Part shown: positions 2,989 through 38,762 of the stretch, in pieces | How the letters are laid out: each line of letters opens with the position of its first letter | Position numbering within the stretch: the stretch's first letter is position 1 | Assembly (NCBI GenBank): GCA_031265875.1 | Contig: JAISCA010000051.1 | Coordinates: forward strand, 62,001-126,000 | Reading direction: 5' to 3' | DNA: 64,000 nt | Source: Propionibacteriaceae bacterium | GTDB lineage: Bacteria; Actinomycetota; Actinomycetes; Propionibacteriales; Propionibacteriaceae | The notes under the pieces: model-generated | The model's input: only the letters and a program-made list of their open reading frames with translations | The model's database searches: none | Told to the model about the DNA's origin: nothing | Translations under genes and position numbers: made by a program

Positions 2989-4014
2989 TCAGGCGCATGG
3001 CTCGGCCGTCGGTCCGGCCGGCGACCAGACCCGCTCCGGCAAGCGGTCGGCCCGAACCAAGGTCAGACCGAACTCGGAGGCCACCACTTCCACCCGGAGC
3101 GGGCCTTGATCGGTCGCCAGACAGGCTTGGCCGCCGGTCACGTCGTACAGTGCCGCAGCCGGCGCCGCCACCACCTCGATCGGCTCGGCCAAGCGGGTCT
3201 CGACGGTCAAGCTGGTGGCCGGATCAGTCAGATAGGACCGGAAGGACGGCGTTTGGGCGTAGGCGGACAGGAAAGCCGGGTCCGTGATGACCCCGTCCTC
3301 GGGCAAAGCCAGGCTGACGGCCCCATTCCCAGTCACGGCCAGCCGGGGGCCCGGCCAAGCCGTCGCCGCCGGTGGGCTGACGGTCAGAGCGATCAGGCCG
3401 CCGCCGGCTTGGAACAAGATGTCGTCCGGCGAGACCCGCTGCCCCACCGACCAGGGGCAGGCGGTCGGCGTGACCTCGGTCTGAGGCGACCACACCGCCT
3501 GGCTCAAGGGCAAGCTGGTCTGGCGCTTGTCACCGCCCAACTTGGTCCACAGTCTCTGCACGGCCCAGGCCGTGTCCGACCCGAACAGACCGGTCGTGGC
3601 GACCGGTCCGAAGCCCAAGCGGTTCAACTCGCCTTGCAGAGCCTGGACGTCGTCGCCCCGGTCGCCCTGGGCCAGGTCGCGCCAGAGCGGCGTGGCCAGA
3701 TTCAGAAGTACGACCGGGCGGTCGTCCAGGGTGAAGGGTGAAGTCCCCGAGGCCAGGGGTTGCCCGACCACGCAGTCGCTCCGCCGCAGCACGCCGGCGG
3801 CCGGGGCTAAGGCCTCCCATAAGGGCGCCGACTCGGCTTTGACGGGGGCCAAGCGGGCGTCTGTGAATTGACGCGGCACCACTTCAACCAACCCGGCCGT
3901 GACCGGTGCGATCAGCCCGTCCGTCGTCCGATCCGGGGCCAGCCACAGACCGGCCAGCAAACCGACGGCCCCAGCGGCGACCGCCGCCAGAACTATCACC
4001 CGCAACCTGTTCAT
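2989..4014 (-). CDS. Peptidoglycan-binding-domain membrane-fusion (adaptor-like) protein
   Basis: 341 residues with an N-terminal membrane anchor or signal (about 5-26, ending GLLAGLWLA). A PG_binding_1-type repeat lies around residues 115-150, recognisable by GDRGDDVQALQGELNRLGF and TGLFGSDTAWAVQ. The later beta-rich part resembles HlyD/MacA-type adaptors that accompany ABC exporters in Gram-positive bacteria. This fits the FtsX-like permease just downstream. Inference: the protein links the transporter to the cell wall. Translation appears leaderless: TATTCT sits 6 nt before the ATG. No catalytic motif is seen. Confidence 0.6.
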   Translation of the reverse strand: MNRLRVIVLAAVAAGAVGLLAGLWLAPDRTTDGLIAPVTAGLVEVVPRQFTDARLAPVKAESAPLWEALAPAAGVLRRSDCVVGQPLASGTSPFTLDDRPVVLLNLATPLWRDLAQGDRGDDVQALQGELNRLGFGPVATTGLFGSDTAWAVQRLWTKLGGDKRQTSLPLSQAVWSPQTEVTPTACPWSVGQRVSPDDILFQAGGGLIALTVSPPAATAWPGPRLAVTGNGAVSLALPEDGVITDPAFLSAYAQTPSFRSYLTDPATSLTVETRLAEPIEVVAAPAAALYDVTGGQACLATDQGPLRVEVVASEFGLTLVRADRLPERVWSPAGPTAEPCA

Positions 4015-6214: not shown

Positions 6215-7318
6215 CTAGACCAGAACCAACTCGGCCCGCTGGAAGGCCTTGACGTCGGTGTACCCGGTCGAGGCCAGGGTGCGGCGCAGGGCGCCGACCA
6301 GGTTCATGGTGCCGTCGGCGATGGCCGACGGGCCGACCATGATCTCCTCTAGGCTGCCGATCTGGTCGAACTTGACCCGCCAGCCCCTGGGCAAGCTGGC
6401 GTGCCAGGCCTCGGCCCCCCAGTGGTAGCCCCGGCCCGGCGCCTCGGCCGCCCGGGCCAACGGCGTGCCGACCATGGCGGCGTCGGCCCCGCAGGCCAAG
6501 GCCTTGGCGATGTCGCCGGAGCCACCCAAGGAGCCGTCGGCGATGACCTGGACGTAGCGTCCGCCCGACTCGTCCAAGTAGTCGCGCCTAGCCGCCGCCA
6601 CGTCGGAGACGGCCGTCGCCATCGGCACCTCGATGCCGAGCACACTGCTGGTGGCGTTACGGGCCCCGCCACCGAAGCCGACCAGGACGCCGGCCGCGCC
6701 GGTCCGCATCAGGTGCAGGGCGGTGTGATAGTTGGCGCAGCCGCCCACGATGACGGGCACGTCCAAGGTCCGGATGAACCGCTTCAGGTCGAGCGGGGTC
6801 TGCCCGGCCGAGACGTGCTCGGCCGAGACCAGGGCGCCTCGGATGACGAAGAAGTCCGGGGCCGAGCGCTCCACCACTTGGGCGAACTGCTCGACGTTCT
6901 TGGGCGACAAGGAGCCCGCCACCGGCTGCCCGGACCCGCGGATCTGGGCCAGGCGGGCCGTGATCAAGTCGGCTTTGATGGGCTCGGCGTAGACCTCTTG
7001 CAAGCGGCGGGTGGCGGCCATCGGGTCGTCCAACTGGCCCAACTCGGCGAAGATCGGCTCGGGCTCCTCGTAACGGGTCCACAACCCTTCCAGGTTGATC
7101 ACGCCGAGGCCGCCCAGCCGGCCCATCTCGATGGCGGTGGCCGGCGACATGACCGAGTCCATCGGGGCCGCGATCAGGGGGCAGGCCAATCTGAGGGCGT
7201 CGATCCGCCAGCTCAGGTCGACGTCCTCCAGGGCGCGGGTGCGCCGAGTCGGCACCACGGCCACATCGTCAAAAGAATACGCCTTGTCAGCTCGCTTGAA
7301 ACGACCGATGTCGCTCAT
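6215..7318 (-). CDS. guaB3: GuaB3-family IMP dehydrogenase-related protein
   Basis: 367 residues of the IMPDH/GMP reductase TIM-barrel family without CBS domains. It shows the N-terminal AYSFDDVAVVPTRR and later [32 protein letters not shown] (phosphate-binding and barrel signature). In the loop where IMPDH has its catalytic Cys it reads GFGGGARNATSS (214-225), with no Cys. True IMPDH chemistry therefore looks unlikely; from memory, actinobacterial GuaB3 proteins commonly have such a loop. The start is the ATG at 7318 after GGGAGGG. It lies downstream of guaB on the same strand, about 130 bp away. Confidence 0.88.
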   Translation of the reverse strand: MSDIGRFKRADKAYSFDDVAVVPTRRTRALEDVDLSWRIDALRLACPLIAAPMDSVMSPATAIEMGRLGGLGVINLEGLWTRYEEPEPIFAELGQLDDPMAATRRLQEVYAEPIKADLITARLAQIRGSGQPVAGSLSPKNVEQFAQVVERSAPDFFVIRGALVSAEHVSAGQTPLDLKRFIRTLDVPVIVGGCANYHTALHLMRTGAAGVLVGFGGGARNATSSVLGIEVPMATAVSDVAAARRDYLDESGGRYVQVIADGSLGGSGDIAKALACGADAAMVGTPLARAAEAPGRGYHWGAEAWHASLPRGWRVKFDQIGSLEEIMVGPSAIADGTMNLVGALRRTLASTGYTDVKAFQRAELVLV

Positions 7319-7447
7319 GGTCGACCCTCCCTGCTCGTCGGTCTCCAGACCCAAGACCTAACCTAGTGGTCTAGCAGGTCGAAAGGCGCGGATTCGCCGC
7401 CTCCGGCGCAGGGCTGGTCCGCCCCCTGGCCCCGACCAGGTCTGGCC

Positions 7448-9061
<1,614 letters not shown>

Positions 9062-9371: not shown

Positions 9372-10232
9372 ATGGGTTTTCATGACGACGAGGCCATGAT
9401 GTGGGTCGATGGCGACCTCTGCTTGGCCGGACAAGCTTCGATCCCCGCTCTGGACCACGCCATCACGGTGGGAGACGGCATCTTCGAGGCGCTCAAGATC
9501 ATCCACGGCGAGATCTTCGCCTTGGACCGGCACCTGCGCCGGATGGAGCGCTCGGCTAAAGGAGCCGGGGTGCCCTATCCGGGCCACGACGCCATCGCGG
9601 CAGCCGCCCGGGCGGTCGTCCAGGCCAACCGGACCCTGCTCACTGGCACCCATGACGTCTTGCGGCTGACCCTGACCGCCGGGCGGGGCCACATCGGCTC
9701 CAACCGTATCCCCGGCGTCAGGCCGACTCTGATCGCCGCCGTCACCCACCAGACGCCACGCGGGTTGGCCGGCTCCGCCATCACGACGGACTGGATCCGT
9801 AACGAACGCGGCGCCCTGTCCGGTTTGAAGACGACCAGCTACATGGAGAACGCCATGGCGGCCGACCTGGCTTCGGCGGCCGGCGTGGACGAGGTGATGT
9901 TCGCCAACACGGTCGGCCATCTCTGCGAGGGCTTCCGCTCCAACGTCTTCCTGGTCCTGGACGGGCAGTTGGTCACACCGCCCTTGAGCGACGGCCCCCT
10001 GGCCGGCATCACTCGCCAACTGGTGCTGGAGTGGGTGGAGGTCGAGGAGCGGTCGGTCCCCTTCGCCGCCCTGACCCAAGCCAGCGAGATCTTCATCACC
10101 TCGACCGTCAGCGACGTCATGGCCATCACCGCCCTCGACGGCCATCCGATCGCAGACGGCCAGATCGGCCCGTTCACCGCCGCCGCCCAAGCCGCCTTCG
10201 CCGCCGGCCAAGCCCTCGGCCTCAACCCCTAG
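9372..10232 (+). CDS. Class IV PLP aminotransferase / aminodeoxychorismate lyase-like
   Basis: PLP fold type IV enzyme, 286 residues. Lys153 in GLKTTSY is the expected Schiff-base lysine. Glu186 in the segment following MFANTVGHLCEG matches the Glu that contacts the pyridine nitrogen. WVDGDLCLAG at the N terminus and GDGIFEALKI (35-44) are family signatures. The family includes branched-chain aminotransferase, D-amino-acid aminotransferase and 4-amino-4-deoxychorismate lyase (PabC). The short length and single-gene context favour the PabC-like group, but substrate cannot be fixed from sequence. The 3' end overlaps the convergent regulator gene by 11 bp. Confidence 0.82.
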   Translation: MGFHDDEAMMWVDGDLCLAGQASIPALDHAITVGDGIFEALKIIHGEIFALDRHLRRMERSAKGAGVPYPGHDAIAAAARAVVQANRTLLTGTHDVLRLTLTAGRGHIGSNRIPGVRPTLIAAVTHQTPRGLAGSAITTDWIRNERGALSGLKTTSYMENAMAADLASAAGVDEVMFANTVGHLCEGFRSNVFLVLDGQLVTPPLSDGPLAGITRQLVLEWVEVEERSVPFAALTQASEIFITSTVSDVMAITALDGHPIADGQIGPFTAAAQAAFAAGQALGLNP

Positions 10233-11697
10233 CTACTTGGACCTTAGTCACGGGGAGGGAATAGGTGGTGTTACGGGATCCCCGGGCTCCGTTCATCGTG
10301 ACCCGGCCTTGCTTTATGAGCTTGTTCAAGGCGTAGCGGATTTGCGTCGGGGTCGAGTGGCAACGCTCGACCATGGTGCGTCGGTCGAGCGGGCCTTCGG
10401 TCAGGGCGACCAATATTCGGCGCGAGACATCCATCCAGTCACCTGGCTCAGTGGCGGCTGAGCGGACGGCGGCCGTCGCGGAGGGAGGGCGCATGAGGAC
10501 AGCGGTGAAGCTGACGGCTTTGTCGATGAAAATGGGCGGCTCGACCCGCCAATCGGCCAGGGCGCGCTGGGCTTCACCGATGCCGCCACCCTCGCCCTCG
10601 ATGACACGGGCTCCTTGCGAGGTCTGGGTGAGGGAGCAGATGTCGTACAGATACTCGTTGACGGCAGATTTGCCGCCGGGCAGGCCGAGTTGCTGACGGC
10701 TGACGCCCCATAGGCCGCCCGGGTTGGAGATGACCAAGCGGTCGTCGCGCAGCCGGATCTCCACCCGCTTGGACTGGGTATGGGGGCCGAGGTCGCGATG
10801 CACGAGCGCATTGGCGACTAGTTCCCGCAGAGCGGCCAAAGGCAGTTCGGGGTGGTCGTAATTCTGGCCGTCGGCGCCGACCCGCACCCCAGTCCGCAGG
10901 TTGCGGCGCAACCACTCCAGGCAGCCGTCAAGCAGGTCTGGGATCGGCCCGTCCAGATGGGCCAGGTCGACCAGCCGGTCGGCCGATCCTAAGCCGGGCA
11001 CGACGGCGGCGGTCACAGCCAGGTTGGGAGCGAATTGCTGCGGGTACTGGCCCAACGCGTACAGTCCCCCCAAGGTCAGCCGAGGACCTTCGGCTTCCAG
11101 CACTCCCTTGCGGCGCAACACTGTCTGGTCATCCACCAGCGCCAGCCGACGGGAAGCGGCGCGGGCGTTACGCAAGAAGGCCTGGACCAAGCCCTCGTCC
11201 AGGTCGACCGCGCCCGTGCCATCCACCACGACTGCGTCATAGCGGGGCCTATCACGCAGCGCGAGCATCTGCTGCTCCTCCTGAGGGCTCATCGCGTAGT
11301 CACCATCGGCCTGCCGCAAATAGCCTCGCCCGTTGACCCGGCCCGGTCTGTCGCTGGCCGGCATACCGGCCACCGTAGCCACCACTACCACCTCGCCCGC
11401 CACGGGAACCGTGTCGAAAGACACCGCCACCGGTGGCACGACAGCTGTCCGAGCTTGGGACGCGATGCCCTGCTCGATCGAGGCGGGATCAGCCACCCCG
11501 ACCGGCGCGAAGCCGTCATTCTCGTCTAGCCCGATTACGATCACCCCGCCGTCGGGCATGTTGCCGAAGGCGCACAGCGTCGTGGCCAGATCAGGGCAAC
11601 CCCCGCTGCCGCGCTTCACCTCCACCGAGGTGAAATCGCCGCCATGGACCCGCATGTCCTCAATCAGCGTCAATACCGTCGGAGAGTCCCACGTCAT
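10222..11697 (-). CDS. AlbA_2 / HATPase_c_4 predicted transcriptional regulator
   Basis: 491 residues of the COG2865 type. The N-terminal AlbA_2 (Schlafen-AlbA) domain is at about 10-130: SVEVKRG, TLCAFGNMPDGGVIVIGLDE and GRGYLRQADGDYAMSP. A middle ATPase-like domain carries LRELVANALVHRDL (290-303) and RLVISNPGGLWG (320-331). A C-terminal winged-helix-like part covers about 425-475. These proteins are usually annotated as RecG-like helicases or regulators; no helicase motifs are seen here. The upstream 100 bp hold four to five phased direct repeats, so autoregulation is a reasonable inference. Neighbours are housekeeping genes, not a defence island. Confidence 0.85.
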   Translation of the reverse strand: MTWDSPTVLTLIEDMRVHGGDFTSVEVKRGSGGCPDLATTLCAFGNMPDGGVIVIGLDENDGFAPVGVADPASIEQGIASQARTAVVPPVAVSFDTVPVAGEVVVVATVAGMPASDRPGRVNGRGYLRQADGDYAMSPQEEQQMLALRDRPRYDAVVVDGTGAVDLDEGLVQAFLRNARAASRRLALVDDQTVLRRKGVLEAEGPRLTLGGLYALGQYPQQFAPNLAVTAAVVPGLGSADRLVDLAHLDGPIPDLLDGCLEWLRRNLRTGVRVGADGQNYDHPELPLAALRELVANALVHRDLGPHTQSKRVEIRLRDDRLVISNPGGLWGVSRQQLGLPGGKSAVNEYLYDICSLTQTSQGARVIEGEGGGIGEAQRALADWRVEPPIFIDKAVSFTAVLMRPPSATAAVRSAATEPGDWMDVSRRILVALTEGPLDRRTMVERCHSTPTQIRYALNKLIKQGRVTMNGARGSRNTTYSLPVTKVQVARG

Positions 11698-11715
11698 AGA
11701 TACACCTTACCGCCC

Positions 11716-11807
11716 AGAATGCTAATTCGCACTCTAGAATGCTAATTCACCCGCTCAGAATGCTAAAAGTCCGACCAGATTGCTAAAATAACTAGTCAAA
11801 GCGTTAA
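11716..11807 (-). promoter_or_regulatory. Phased direct-repeat operator array upstream of the AlbA_2 regulator
   Basis: On the minus strand TTAGCATTCT occurs at 11716-11725, 11736-11745 and 11757-11766. TTAGCAATCT follows at 11777-11786, and a weak fifth copy sits in phase at 11798-11807. Starts are 20-21 bp apart, about two helical turns, so a protein could line up on one DNA face. The array begins about 20 bp before the ATG at 11697, and each unit contains TAGCAT, itself -10-like. The stretch is much more AT-rich than its surroundings. Confidence 0.75.
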
Positions 11808-11837
11808 TACACCGTTCTAGACAAGCCAAGATGACGC

Positions 11838-11876
11838 AGGACAGGGCCCGCCCCCTTGAAGGGCGGACCCTGTCCT
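11838..11876 (-). terminator. Hairpin terminator after groES-groEL
   Basis: A 16-bp stem (11838-11853 / 11861-11876) with one mismatch and a 7-nt loop, lying about 50 bp past the groEL stop on the minus strand. No strong T tract follows, but the stem is long and GC-rich. Confidence 0.65.
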
Positions 11877-13932: not shown

Positions 13933-13959
13933 TTGGCACACTCAAGGTGAGAGTGCTAA
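13933..13959 (-). promoter_or_regulatory. CIRCE operator, promoter-proximal copy (HrcA site)
   Basis: TTGGCACAC-N9-GAGTGCTAA: one perfect and one degenerate arm (two mismatches) against the CIRCE consensus TTAGCACTC-N9-GAGTGCTAA. It lies just downstream of the -10 of groES-groEL, over the expected transcription start. Confidence 0.85.
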
Positions 13960-13964
13960 AGCAG

Positions 13965-13993
13965 AATCTATACCCCGTTTAGCACTCGATCAA
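13965..13993 (-). promoter_or_regulatory. groES-groEL promoter
   Basis: On the minus strand: TTGATC (13993-13988), a 17-nt spacer, then TAGATT (13970-13965). The -35 lies within the upstream CIRCE and the -10 lies between the two CIRCE copies, an arrangement that suits repression by HrcA. Confidence 0.65.
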
Positions 13994-30809: not shown

Positions 30810-32516
<1,707 letters not shown>

Positions 32517-32536: not shown

Positions 32537-32563
32537 GTAGCACTCACACTGGGCGAGTGCTAA
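32537..32563 (-). promoter_or_regulatory. CIRCE operator of groEL2, promoter-proximal copy
   Basis: GTAGCACTC-N9-GAGTGCTAA; one mismatch against consensus, at the first base. It lies downstream of the inferred -10. Confidence 0.92.
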
Positions 32564-32567
32564 TCCA

Positions 32568-32596
32568 TGTTTAGCACTCTCCAGGTGAGAGTGCAA
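32568..32596 (-). promoter_or_regulatory. groEL2 promoter
   Basis: On the minus strand: TTGCAC (32596-32591), a 17-nt spacer, then TAAACA (32573-32568). The -35 is inside the upstream CIRCE, mirroring the groES promoter. Confidence 0.45.
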
Positions 32597-32597
32597 A
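32571..32597 (-). promoter_or_regulatory. CIRCE operator of groEL2, upstream copy
   Basis: TTAGCACTC-N9-GAGTGCAAA; a perfect left arm and one mismatch in the right arm. Confidence 0.88.
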
Positions 32598-33803: not shown

Positions 33804-36800
33804 TCAGGCGGCGTGAGCCCAGTGACCGGACAACAGCCGCCGGGACAGCGCCAGCGACGACACCGCGCCGGCGGCCAGCAGCCACACCATGACCCAACGG
33901 CCCAAGCCGGCCGGAGCGCCCGTGTCAGGCAGAGCGCCGGCCGCAGTCACCGAGAAAACGGTCTCGGCCGACCAACCGTTGGCGAAAGCCACTGTCAGGG
34001 TGTGCTGTCCAACGGACAGGCCCGCTAGGAAGCCGGGCTCCAGCTGGACCACGGTCGAACCGGCGAACACCCGGTAATCCGTTCCGGCCGTCAAAACCAC
34101 GCCGTCGACCGACACCAGACCAGTGTGCAAAGACAGATCCCGGACACTGACATGGGTCAAACCAACCGTCGAGCCCCGCACGAAGACCGCACCGCCGACG
34201 AAGCTGTGCTCCAGCGAGTCGGCTTTGAGAGAGGCCACCGCCGCTTCCAAGGCCCGGTAGGCGTCCGTCAGAGCGGCTCCGCTCAAGCCCTGGTCGACCG
34301 CGTCTTGGGCTCCGACCAAGGCGACGGCGACCGCTCGCGAGGCATCCGTCTGAGCCAGCACGGGCAGGTCGGCGGCCTGATCCACCAGTTCTTCCAAATC
34401 GGCCAGAGTGATCGGGACCACGACCGGTGCGGAGGTCAGGCTGGCGCTGGTGTGACCCGGAGCCGACGCCTGAACCTCGACCGTCAACGACTGATCCACG
34501 TCAGCCGCCACCACGGTGTAGGAGGCAGCCGTGCCGACCTCGGTCGAACCCCGCAACCAGCGATAGGACAACGAAGCCGTGCTGGGAGTCACCGACACCT
34601 GGGCGGTCAAGGTCTGCCCGGACTGCGCTGTGCCCGTGATCTGGACGGAAGTCAGATCGATCAGGCCCGGCGCCGGTGTCACCACCGCCGAGGTCTTGGT
34701 AGCCGTGGTGTGACCAGTGGCAGACGCCGTCACCTCGACCGTCAGGGATTGACCCACGTCAGCCACCGCCACGGTGTAAGTGGCAGCGGTCCCGACCTCG
34801 GTCGAGCCCCGCAACCAGCGATAGGACAGCGCAGCTGTGCTGGGCGCCACCGTCGTGCTCACCCCCAGAGCTTGGCCCAACTGCGGCGTGCCCGTGATCT
34901 GGACAGAACTCAGATCGATCACATTCAAAGCCGGCGTGACTGGAGCCGAGGTCGAACTGACCGTGGCGTAGCCAGGAGCGGCGGCCTGAACCTCGACCGT
35001 CAGCGGCTGACCCAGATCAGCCAGCACCACGGTGTAGGAAGAAGCCGTCCCGACCTCAGTCGAACCCCGCAACCAGCGATAAGACAACGAGACCGTGGTG
35101 GGATCCACCGACACCTGAGCGTCCAAGGTCTGCCCCTCCCGGGCCTGACCGATGATCTGAACGGAAGTCAGATCGATCACGCCCGGAGCCGGCGTCACCA
35201 CCGCCGAAGTCGAACTAGCGGAGGTGTAACCGGTGGCCGACGCCTGAACCTCGACCGTCAACGACTGGTCCAGATCGGCCGGCACCACGGTGTAAGTGGC
35301 AGCGGTCCCGACCACGGTCGAACCCCGCAACCAGCGATACGACAGAGCCGCCGTGCTGGGCGTCACCGACACCTGAGCGGTCAAAGTCTGCCCCGGCCGA
35401 GCCACGCCCGTGATCTGGACGGCACTCAGATCGATCGTGCCCGGATCCGGTGCGACCGCAGCCGAAGTCGAACTGACGGAGGTGTGACCGGGAGCTGACG
35501 CCTGAACCGCGACGGTCAAGGGCTGACCCACGTCAGCCGCCACCACGGTGTAAGTGGCAGCGGTCCCGACCTCGGTCGAACCCCGCAACCAGCGATAAGA
35601 CAGAGCCGCCGAGGTAGGCGACACGGTCACGTTCACGCCCAAGGCCTGACCCAGCTGCGCCGTGCCCGTGATAACGACAGAGCTCAAATCGATCAGGCCC
35701 GGAGCCGGCGTGACCGGATCGGAGGTCAGATTAGCGTTGGCGTAACCGGTGGCCGAGGCCTGAACCTGGACCGTCAAAGACTGCCCAACATCCTCCGCCA
35801 CCACGGTGTGAGTCGCACCAGTCCCGATCTGGGTCGAACCGCGCAACCAGCGATAGGCCAACGAAACCGTGCTGGGCGTCACCGTCGTGTCCACACTCAA
35901 GGTCTGGCCCAACTGCGCCGTGCCCGTGATCTGAACGGCACTCAGATCGATCAGACCCAAAGCCGGCGTGACCGGGGCCGAAGTCCTGGTCGCGTTGGCG
36001 TAACCAGTGGCACTGGCGGTCACCTCGACCGTCAAAGGCTGATCCAGATCAGCCTCCCCCACGGTGTAAGTCGAAGCGGTCCCGACCTGGGTCGACCCCC
36101 GCAACCAACGATAAGACAATGCAGCCGAGGTAGGCGTCACCGTCGTGTCCACGCTCAGTAGCTGGCCCGGCCGAGCCGTGCCAGTGATCTGGACCGCACT
36201 CAGGTCGATCGCATTCAAAGCCGGCGTGACAATCGCCGAAGTCGAACTGACCGTGGCGTAACCAGGAGCGCTGGCCTGAACCTCGACCGTCAGCGGCTGA
36301 CCCAGATCGGCCAGCACCACAGTGTAGGAAGAACCGGTCCCGACTTCGGTCGACCCCCGCAACCAGCGATACGACAGCGAGACCGTAGTCGGATCCACCG
36401 ACACCTGAGCCTGTAACGACTGCCCCTCCTGGGCCTGACCGACGATCTGGACTGAGATCAGATCGATCACGTTCAAAGCCGGTGTGACCTGAGCCGAGGT
36501 CGAACTGGCACTGTCATAACCCGGGGCCGACGCCTGAACCGCGACCGTCAAGGGCTGATCCACGTCAGCCGCCACCACGGTGTAAGTGGCAGCGGTCCCG
36601 ACCTCGGTCGAACCCCGCAACCAGCGATACGTCAACGCAGCCGTGCTGGGCGACACCGACACCTGGGCGGTCAAAGTCTGCCCCGGCCGAGCCACCCCAG
36701 CGATCTGGATGGAAGTCAGATCGATCACACCCGGCAGCGGCGTGACCGCCAACGAAGTCGAACTGGCGGGGTTGTAACCAGTGGCCGAAGCCTGAACCGC

Positions 36801-38762
36801 GACCGTCAAGGGCTGACCGACATCGGCCGCCACCACGGTGTACGAAGAACCGGTCCCGACCTCGGTCGCACCCCGCAACCAGCGATAGGACAGAGAGACC
36901 GCGTTAGGCTCCACCAATGTGCTCACGCCCAAGGTCTGGCCCAATTGCGCCGTGCCCGTGATCTGAACCAAACTCAAGGTGATCGTGCCCAGGGCCGGCG
37001 TGACCGGGTCCGAAGTCCTGGTCGCGTTGGCGTAACCGGTGGCTGATGCCTGAACCTGGACCGTCAACGACTGACCCAGATCGTCCGCCACCACGATGTA
37101 GGTGGACCCAGTCCCGACCTCGGTCGCACCCCGCAACCAGCGGTACGACAACGAAGCCGTGCTGGGAACCACTGTCATGTCCACACCCAGCACCTGGCCC
37201 GGCTGCGGCGTGCCCGTGATCTGAACCGAACTCAAATTTATCGTGCCCAGGGCCGGCGTGATCGGGTCCGAAGTCTTGGTCGCGCTGTTGTAGCCGGTGG
37301 CGGTGGCGGTCACCTCGACCGTCAGGGACTGACCCAGATCGGCCGACACCACGGTGTATGTGGCAGCGGTCCCGACTTGGGTCGAGCCCCGCAACCAGCG
37401 ATACGACAACGAGGCCGTGGCAGGGGCCACCGTGGTGTTCACGCTCAGCGTCTGGCCCAATTGCGGCGTGCCCGTGATCTGGACGGCACTCAGATCGATA
37501 GCGCCCAAAGCCGGCGTGACCTCAGCCGAGGTCAGGCTGGCGCCGTAGAAGCTGACCAGCGGACGGAAAACCGACAACTGGTAGGTGTGAGCCCCGTCCG
37601 CCACCTGGGCCGTGACCGTGATGGGCTTACCGGCGTCCGCTCCCACCAGGGTGTACGTGGCGGCGGTCGTGGCACCTTCGATGGGGGCGCCATCCCGCTG
37701 CCACTGGTAAGTCACCTTCGAGGCGGCGGCGCTGGGCGTGACCTGACCCAATTGGGCGGTCAGGGTCTGGCCGACCTCGGCCTGCCCGGTGACGGACAGC
37801 GAGTCGATCCAGACCTGGGCGGCGCTGAAGACCTCGACCTCGTAGGTGGGCTGTCCAGTGACCGAGATGCGATAAAGGTCGGACGCCCCGGCGGCCGGTC
37901 GGGTGGTGCTGGCCGCCGGCATCTCCCAAACCAAGGTAGCGTCAGGAGTGTAGCCGATGCCGTATTCGGTCTCCCGGTGAACGATGGTGATGGGAACGGA
38001 CTGACCGTTCTTGGTCACGCTGACCTGTTCGGTGTTGAAGTGGTAATTGGGCAAGCTATACGACCATCTACCACTACTGGGCAGATTCTCGTAAGGGAAG
38101 AAACCATCAGCCGGGGGCCAAGCCACCGCGCCACTGGTGCGGGTGTTATCTTGCATTCCGGCGTTACCATTGCTATTGCCCCAGACCAAGGAGTCTGTGT
38201 TATTAGTGTGACCGATGCCGAACTGGCTCTGGGGCGGGAACAGTATCCACTTCCGGTGGCCGACGCTGACGTTGTACTCCCCCTCGTCGCTCATATAGTT
38301 CTCGATCGCCTGACCACCGCCCAAGGCGCCCGATGACCAGCCCAGGTTAGATTTGGCGGCGCCTGCGGCGCCATCGGCCGTATAGCAGGCCCAAGTGGAG
38401 CCGGGAGTGTGGCTCAAAGTACCGGCCGCCGCCATCATCAGGGCTGTCTGCTGGGCCACAGCGGTGGCGGCGCTGTTCTCGGTCACAGGCGCCAGCCCAG
38501 CCAAGTCGCGGTAATAGTTGATGATGTCGATCTCGGACTGGCGGAATGCCGTCGTGGTGGTCCCGGCTTCGCATCCGGCCGTATTGCCGGTCCAACCGGT
38601 CGGCACGTTGAAATTGGCCAAGAAGCTGTTGATGTAGGCCTTGGAGACATCTTCCATCGAGGCGCGGTTAACAGCCGCCTGGGCCGGGGGCGTCGGCGCC
38701 AGCCAGACGCCGGCTCCGACGATGGAGACGATCAGGGCGGTGACGAAGGCGACCTTCTTCAC
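33804..38762 (-). CDS. Sortase-anchored CAP-domain surface protein with tandem Ig-like repeats
   Basis: 1652 residues from the GTG at 38762 (AGGAAGGA upstream). Signal peptide about 1-30 (KKVAFVTALIVSIVGAGVWL, cleavage near PAQAA). A CAP/SCP domain follows (about 35-200: IDIINYYRDLAGLAPVTEN, GHRKWILFPPQSQFGIGH). Next come one divergent Ig-like unit, then twelve near-identical 86-residue Ig-like units, each with SYRWLRGST and a GYxxAxxTSxxVTPA boundary. Near the C terminus lie a short helical FIVAR-like segment and an X2-type domain (SVDGVVLTAGTDYRVFAGST), then the sorting signal LPDTG, a hydrophobic helix and a basic tail. Role probably adhesion or wall interaction; no sortase gene is in the window. 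Confidence 0.88.
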   Translation of the reverse strand: MKKVAFVTALIVSIVGAGVWLAPTPPAQAAVNRASMEDVSKAYINSFLANFNVPTGWTGNTAGCEAGTTTTAFRQSEIDIINYYRDLAGLAPVTENSAATAVAQQTALMMAAAGTLSHTPGSTWACYTADGAAGAAKSNLGWSSGALGGGQAIENYMSDEGEYNVSVGHRKWILFPPQSQFGIGHTNNTDSLVWGNSNGNAGMQDNTRTSGAVAWPPADGFFPYENLPSSGRWSYSLPNYHFNTEQVSVTKNGQSVPITIVHRETEYGIGYTPDATLVWEMPAASTTRPAAGASDLYRISVTGQPTYEVEVFSAAQVWIDSLSVTGQAEVGQTLTAQLGQVTPSAAASKVTYQWQRDGAPIEGATTAATYTLVGADAGKPITVTAQVADGAHTYQLSVFRPLVSFYGASLTSAEVTPALGAIDLSAVQITGTPQLGQTLSVNTTVAPATASLSYRWLRGSTQVGTAATYTVVSADLGQSLTVEVTATATGYNSATKTSDPITPALGTINLSSVQITGTPQPGQVLGVDMTVVPSTASLSYRWLRGATEVGTGSTYIVVADDLGQSLTVQVQASATGYANATRTSDPVTPALGTITLSLVQITGTAQLGQTLGVSTLVEPNAVSLSYRWLRGATEVGTGSSYTVVAADVGQPLTVAVQASATGYNPASSTSLAVTPLPGVIDLTSIQIAGVARPGQTLTAQVSVSPSTAALTYRWLRGSTEVGTAATYTVVAADVDQPLTVAVQASAPGYDSASSTSAQVTPALNVIDLISVQIVGQAQEGQSLQAQVSVDPTTVSLSYRWLRGSTEVGTGSSYTVVLADLGQPLTVEVQASAPGYATVSSTSAIVTPALNAIDLSAVQITGTARPGQLLSVDTTVTPTSAALSYRWLRGSTQVGTASTYTVGEADLDQPLTVEVTASATGYANATRTSAPVTPALGLIDLSAVQITGTAQLGQTLSVDTTVTPSTVSLAYRWLRGSTQIGTGATHTVVAEDVGQSLTVQVQASATGYANANLTSDPVTPAPGLIDLSSVVITGTAQLGQALGVNVTVSPTSAALSYRWLRGSTEVGTAATYTVVAADVGQPLTVAVQASAPGHTSVSSTSAAVAPDPGTIDLSAVQITGVARPGQTLTAQVSVTPSTAALSYRWLRGSTVVGTAATYTVVPADLDQSLTVEVQASATGYTSASSTSAVVTPAPGVIDLTSVQIIGQAREGQTLDAQVSVDPTTVSLSYRWLRGSTEVGTASSYTVVLADLGQPLTVEVQAAAPGYATVSSTSAPVTPALNVIDLSSVQITGTPQLGQALGVSTTVAPSTAALSYRWLRGSTEVGTAATYTVAVADVGQSLTVEVTASATGHTTATKTSAVVTPAPGLIDLTSVQITGTAQSGQTLTAQVSVTPSTASLSYRWLRGSTEVGTAASYTVVAADVDQSLTVEVQASAPGHTSASLTSAPVVVPITLADLEELVDQAADLPVLAQTDASRAVAVALVGAQDAVDQGLSGAALTDAYRALEAAVASLKADSLEHSFVGGAVFVRGSTVGLTHVSVRDLSLHTGLVSVDGVVLTAGTDYRVFAGSTVVQLEPGFLAGLSVGQHTLTVAFANGWSAETVFSVTAAGALPDTGAPAGLGRWVMVWLLAAGAVSSLALSRRLLSGHWAHAA
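34420..37499 (-). repeat. Twelve tandem 258-bp coding repeats
   Basis: Internal repeats of the CAP surface protein, each encoding 86 residues with the YRWLRG core. They remain similar at DNA level (for example the stretch encoding YRWLRG recurs almost unchanged), so unequal recombination or assembly collapse could change the copy number. Confidence 0.9.

Follow-up and report, generated by a model that had tools for sequence, protein, structure and literature searches.

A phased array of four direct repeats lies just upstream of a gene for a SLFN_AlbA_2 / HATPase_c_4 / winged-helix protein in a 64,000-nucleotide stretch of a Propionibacteriaceae genome (the whole stretch that was analysed is called "the window" below). 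We consider it likely that the array serves as operator for the gene directly downstream of it, and that the protein belongs to a self-repressing, single-target module made of one gene. The array itself is genuine. The gene occupies positions 10222..11697 on the minus strand (491 aa, ATG at 11697) and was assigned by Pfam and by a family profile. A word search placed four units on the same strand: the distal unit 1, TTAGCAATCT, at 11777..11786, and three copies of TTAGCATTCT, which are unit 2 at 11757..11766, unit 3 at 11736..11745 and the proximal unit 4 at 11716..11725, the last of these within the -35/-10 spacer. From distal to proximal the spacings are 20, 21 and 20 bp, and the units extend up to 89 bp upstream of the start.

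A sequence-only reading of this DNA had proposed phased direct repeats in front of an AlbA_2/ATPase gene, and the analysis bore this out: the array is single in the window, where a search for a second array of three to four 10-mers (<=1 mismatch, 20-22 bp apart) found none elsewhere, and none of 60 Markov-1 sequences with the composition of the window yielded such an array. The word TTAGCAWTCT has four matches in the genome (a 3.12-Mb draft in 70 contigs, 99% complete), all four of them inside the array, and the paired-unit pattern is likewise unique to the array within its own genome. The G+C content of 11698-11830 is 43%, versus 67% for the window. The same reading had included a weak fifth copy in phase; this copy, TTAACGCTTT at 11798..11807 (minus strand), 21 bp above unit 1, agrees at 6 of 10 bases, is unsupported by itself and was left uncounted. 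A half-site facing the opposite way lies between units 3 and 4 at 11726..11735 on the plus strand (AGAGTGCGAA / TTCGCACTCT; two mismatches, an imperfect dyad), and the inverted-repeat listing includes an inverted repeat at 11724-11747 that overlaps the same interval. The presence of this opposite half-site in one interval suggests that the unit is related to a dyad, a form that is plain in the orthologues L048 and L049.

The candidate -10 box of the gene is TAAGGT at 11704..11709 (minus strand), 6 nt before the ATG, and the proximal unit ends 6 bp ahead of it. A -10 box about 6 nt before the ATG is the geometry of a leaderless actinobacterial promoter, and because the candidate box is so close to the start the mRNA of the gene is probably leaderless. 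The geometry is repeated in the orthologues L009, L048 and L049, where the order is unit, 5-6 bp, TAGGCT or TAGCAT, 6-7 nt and ATG. A TAnnnT motif occurs 5-8 nt before the start in 17/46 homologues of a first set and 9/28 of a second set, versus 5/63 controls, and the end of the proximal copy lies a median of 18 bp from the start (36 homologue loci with p<=0.01). The TAGCAT of the three TTAGCATTCT units and the TAGCAA of the fourth fit the loose TAnnnT form, but the suggestion that every unit carries a -10 element (TAGCAT) is unsupported, TAAGGT being the better placed. The geometry seen in the gene and in the family therefore makes the units resemble operators on a promoter more than promoters, and it is unlikely that they are promoters themselves.

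Residues 24-136 of the protein match PF04326 (SLFN_AlbA_2) in Pfam with 42.3 bits against a curated cut-off of 25.3, and residues 310-401 match PF13749 (HATPase_c_4) with 49.9 bits against a cut-off of 26; both families match all 41 aligned family members (E<=0.01). GHKL ATPases are marked by the Glu and Asn of the N-box and by glycine boxes. The protein bears these marks, with E292, N296, G327 and G372 invariant in 41/41 members, and ATP binding is predicted. The C-terminal winged helix foreseen from the single sequence was recovered through the family profile, which matches MarR/ArsR-type winged-helix structures at profile positions of about 415-490, and MarR_2 matches 25/41 members; the window protein searched alone in Pfam has no winged-helix family match, and the assignment of this domain is made via the profile. 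The activity of SLFN13 is described as needing E205, E210 and D248 (PMC5862951). In the window protein D21, E26 and D58/E59 align with rSLFN13 E205/E210/D248, and either 58 or 59 may pair with D248. Position 21 is acidic in 40/41 members, E26 is present in 41/41, D58 is Asp in 30/41, and E59 is Glu in 40/41 and Asp in 1/41. The family profile also puts the active-site segment on several Schlafen structures. The acidic residues of a Schlafen RNase are thus present, and the domain is a putative RNase.

The alignment with PDB 3lmm takes in the ATPase, the C-terminal winged helix and part of the N-terminal half, and that with PDB 2kyy the AlbA_2 domain. Proteins with SLFN_AlbA_2 and HATPase_c_4 domains (COG2865 or "RecG-related") have related domains in common with the window protein. 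A search of NCBIfam with the window protein gave no match, and a PADLOC search gave weak partial argonaute-associated matches only. The PHROGs label for the family, "DNA helicase", was not followed. What SLFN_AlbA_2/ATPase/winged-helix proteins do is poorly defined, and Pfam and PHROGs still class them as helicases.

Homologues were drawn from 57 relatives (14 matches at E<=1e-30), from 396 genomes of the phylum (12 at E<=1e-40), from 345 genomes of the class (31 at E<=1e-60, by profile), own genome counted in each, and from a named genome collection (10 loci). A second set was taken from 47 class-level matches, of which 30 had loci and 28 were used. In the 160 bp ahead of each start, every 9-mer was counted in non-overlapping copies (<=1 mismatch); the highest count was the array score, and it was compared with dinucleotide shuffles. 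The direct-copy test was fixed on the first set before the second was fetched, and the two sets were scored jointly with the both-strand version. The counts of 46 and 28 exclude the duplicates L003, L007, L008, L047, L062 and L070, together with L021 and L027 (N-terminus absent), L028 (cut off), L005 (short upstream region) and L052 and L056 (short frame). L006, which is the leading part of a split paralogue, was retained; in this paralogue (L003/L006, contig 43 of the same genome as the window) the AlbA_2 piece is 134 aa long and the ATPase/winged-helix piece is in another frame. A diagonal-score repeat test proved too permissive (10/63 controls at p<=0.01), and the copy-count test was used instead.

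Arrays stand at the same place in half of the homologues tested. With direct copies only, 17/46 upstream regions of the first set and 7/28 of the second were significant at p<=0.01, versus 0/63 control genes; with both strands the counts were 25/46, 11/28 and 1/63, the controls being ordinary genes and not other autoregulated regulators. In a comparison of regions within the 74 loci, with copies on both strands counted, 37/74 homologue upstream regions have a significant array at p<=0.01 and 41/74 at p<=0.05. At the same loci and p<=0.01, regions further upstream gave 1/71, the first 160 coding bases 0/73, mid-coding segments 1/73 and regions after the stop codon 5/74. When the homologues were grouped by single linkage at 50% identity, 12 of the 20 clusters held a significant member, and drawing one random member from each gave a mean of 9.3/20. 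No significant array was detected in 33/74 upstream regions even at p<=0.05, among them those of L010 and L050 (50-53% identity). The expectation that the repeats would recur upstream of homologues in related genomes held for the arrays and their position in the family, but the exact word is confined to close orthologues.

The spacing of repeated words follows the helix. In 49 regions that were not chosen for arrays, the lags between 7-mer matches peak at 11-12, 20-21, 31-33, 40-42 and 63 bp, near multiples of 10.5 bp, with lesser excesses at 8, 13 and 30; lag 20 was found 94 times versus 12.2 expected, and lag 11 99 times versus 14.8 expected. The control spectrum shows mainly the 3-bp coding period. 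In the second set, lags of 10-13, 17-24 and 30-32 and a few others exceed twice the expectation, a pattern broader than the first. Rayleigh values were not used as probabilities, since all 212 spacings were drawn from 36 loci selected for significance, and spacings within one locus depend on each other.

The words themselves differ between lineages. Close orthologues (66-76% identity) have CACTCT/AGAGTG units in common, while CTATGAGATAG is found in L053 and L054, TTGTACTTT in L036 and L046, GAGAGATA in L041, L042 and L044, GTGACAGGA in L018, CCTACAACC in L019, and CGACAACTT in L063, L065 and L069. Words are shared most between close homologues, commonly those more than about 50% identical, although some pairs below 35% also score; more distant relatives mostly have other words. 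Pairwise word sharing correlates with identity in five domain segments at Spearman values of 0.12-0.15 throughout, and these values are so weak and so nearly equal that the pairwise test does not single out the domain that reads the word. By eye, the recognition helix has [ST]Q.R in the CACTCT group and RQV in L050, L051 and L010, which is suggestive only. The pattern of the L009 array has two matches in its own genome, G008, both in the array, and none in G000 or G006. The own array accounts for 2/2 places that match a GTACTTT pattern in G110 and 3/4 in G198, with one match each for the reversed-pattern control. We regard the operator reading as supported by comparison, because arrays occur at the same place in half of the tested homologues, are helically phased, have clade-specific words, and in the window genome use a word confined to the array; this favours the earlier proposal of a self-regulating AlbA_2/ATPase/winged-helix protein.

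Relatives are few in collections of phages (5 records) and plasmids (7 records), and 3/12 of them were fetched. Arrays are plain by eye in L106 (a gut phage contig), L107 (an Acetoanaerobium plasmid record) and the viral contigs L093 and L094. Among 13 viral-contig loci, the more distant L095-L103 display no array by eye, L098 having too little upstream DNA, as does L092; no clear array was seen by eye in L105, a fairly close relative. The distant loci without an array suggest that the trait may belong to a closer subfamily. In L104, a distant family member on a viral contig, TTCGAACA words are repeated within about 120 bp before the start.

The gene sits between groEL and an aminotransferase gene, and its downstream neighbour is convergent. 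An inverted repeat at 11838..11876, likely the groEL terminator, marks the right edge of the cassette, and similarity to a relative without the gene resumes about here. In that relative, G006, an Unstab_antitox and ParE_toxin pair occupies the same spot between aminotransferase and groEL, and the flanking DNA is 85-94% identical to the window. Identity between the two ends at about the aminotransferase stop codon and returns at about the groEL terminator, and these break points delimit a window cassette that consists of the gene and its array. Gene and array may have been transferred as a unit. No empty site was seen at the aminotransferase/groEL spot. In G006 the ParE-type toxin-antitoxin pair (L059, 2359-3190) is accompanied at 3084-3115 by a repeat of some 32 bp from the 3' end of the aminotransferase gene, and this repeat looks like a trace of insertion or duplication. 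The orthologue L009 and the aminotransferase are on separate contigs in G008, and the nearest Pfam-scanned neighbour of L047, the twin of L009 in a named assembly, is an AMP-binding enzyme. The third-position G+C content of the window gene is 0.79, versus 0.88-0.89 in three neighbours. Genes for tRNA and tmRNA are frequent integration places for mobile DNA, and tRNA-Val and tmRNA genes precede L052 and L056 by about 90 bp.

Six homologues (L010, L019, L043, L046, L049 and L053) have a same-strand ORF <=40 bp downstream. L010 and a downstream Wadjet JetA gene read in the same direction and overlap by 4 bp (JetA at L010 2-1225), and 2 bp separate L049 from a type I restriction HsdR gene behind it, also co-directional (HsdR at L049 4455-7391); the upstream region of L049 has a significant array and that of L010 does not. 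The L010 and L049 proteins may control the adjoining JetA and HsdR genes. The downstream ORFs of L019, L046 and L053 gave no match, and that of L043 is a DUF1177 protein.

CIRCE, the element recognized by the heat-shock repressor HrcA, is an inverted pair, TTAGCACTC-N9-GAGTGCTAA, with a 9-bp spacer. TTAGCATTCT is one base off the half-site TTAGCACTC over its nine letters, the orthologue L009 has TTAGCACTC exactly and twice, the gene lies directly behind groEL, an HrcA gene is present in the genome, and CIRCE-like half-sites precede groES at 13950-13988 and recur at 32554-32597. The window array is nevertheless direct, and its single inverted pair has a 2-bp spacer; L048 and L049 retain an array without TTAGCA, and distant homologues retain array and phasing with unrelated words. 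Because of this array geometry and these orthologues, we think it very unlikely that the repeats are HrcA sites. Another factor might read the array, or the array might serve partition, segregation, recombination or a nucleoid protein, as iteron origins and partition sites also bear direct phased repeats and as the positions of L052 and L056 behind RNA genes might suggest. The word, however, tends to track the protein lineage and overlies the candidate promoter of the gene, and no replication or partition protein was found among 11 Pfam-scanned neighbour proteins, so that another reader or a job of this kind is unlikely. That the array arose by chance tandem duplication and has no function was already disfavoured: tandem repeats arise easily, and 5/74 regions after the stop codon also score, but the failure of random sequences to yield an array and the recurrence in the family with helical phase make this explanation scarcely credible.

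Other readings concern the action of the protein. Phased sites upstream can activate promoters, and the 89-bp reach of the units would allow the protein to activate its own promoter, or to activate and repress it by degree of occupancy. Here and in L009, L048 and L049 the proximal unit is within the -35/-10 spacer, a position that suits repression, and we hold activation to be improbable. Alternatively the protein could chiefly regulate neighbouring defence operons, the solitary window copy being a stranded remnant or variant. The close co-directional junctions with JetA and HsdR speak for this, yet the downstream neighbour of the window gene is convergent, a known defence gene lies behind only two of the six homologues that have a close same-strand ORF, and the acidic triad is conserved throughout the family, which speaks for more than a regulator. 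We regard a chiefly defence-regulatory role as somewhat unlikely.

We infer from the combined sequence comparisons that the protein binds the array and represses its own gene. The C-terminal winged helix would most likely read the repeat unit, several molecules or dimers would align along one helix face two turns apart, and the bound protein would repress the leaderless promoter by lying over it. Each lineage of the family would have its own word, with its own promoter as the main target of the protein, and paralogues within one cell need not cross-talk if their words are private to the lineage. The ATP-binding domain may act as the sensor and the N-terminal Schlafen-like domain, a possible RNase, as the effector; both control by ATP and RNase activity are putative. 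A signal such as invasion or nucleotide state could free the protein from the operator, so that its level rises and its activity is unleashed. Both steps, release by ATP or by an invader signal and subsequent action of the Schlafen domain, are speculative; the domain make-up and the two neighbouring defence genes of homologues are consistent with them. Gene and array would form one compact cassette. More tentatively, such one-gene, self-addressed modules may be widespread, each joining a Schlafen-type nuclease, an ATP sensor and an autorepressor to a private phased operator that diverges with the winged helix; copies would coexist without cross-talk at spots that toxin-antitoxin pairs also use, and some would now be the first gene of Wadjet or restriction operons.

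For half of the tested homologues the operator can be read from sequence, which provides a ready DNA ligand for each protein, so that binding and the effects of ATP and of a trigger become testable at once. Dozens of natural protein-operator pairs would reveal joint change of winged helix and site, and they are a possible source of orthogonal repressors.

Other features of the window were noted in passing. Three CIRCE-like half-sites at 32554-32597 lie upstream of a minus-strand gene that apparently starts near 32433 and that, judged from its first codons, may be a second groEL. Positions 34441-37533 hold 12 tandem copies of a 258-bp unit, perhaps, at a guess, a repeat-rich surface protein. 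Two adjacent genes on the minus strand, at 6215-7354 and 7448-9016, appear IMP-dehydrogenase-like from their translation.

Among the publications listed as matches, none concerned operators or repeats of the SLFN_AlbA_2/HATPase_c_4 family, and the upstream arrays are a new element for these proteins. Compared with HrcA/CIRCE, the window unit resembles a half-site, but the array is direct and has no inverted pair spaced by 9 bp. Plasmid iterons and phased plasmid operators have helically phased repeats of about 20 bp beside the gene for a winged-helix protein. The likeness to the window locus is in these repeats and their adjoining gene; the difference is that nothing seen at the window locus points to replication. 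Near BREX loci, a fusion of a Schlafen RNase with a minimal histidine kinase and a wHTH has been described (PMC12839542, 2026), and this three-part architecture is common to the window protein. Two homologues studied here adjoin other defence genes (JetA at L010, HsdR at L049), whereas the window gene is solitary behind groEL, and the available part of that report names no operator array for the BREX-associated fusion. Type II toxin-antitoxin operons may work alike, as an autorepressor and a possible toxin in a compact cassette. They differ in being adjacent gene pairs: the window gene has groEL and the aminotransferase gene as neighbours, with no toxin-antitoxin partner beside it among ORFs of at least 80 aa, and its module would be a single gene, with effector and DNA reader in one chain.
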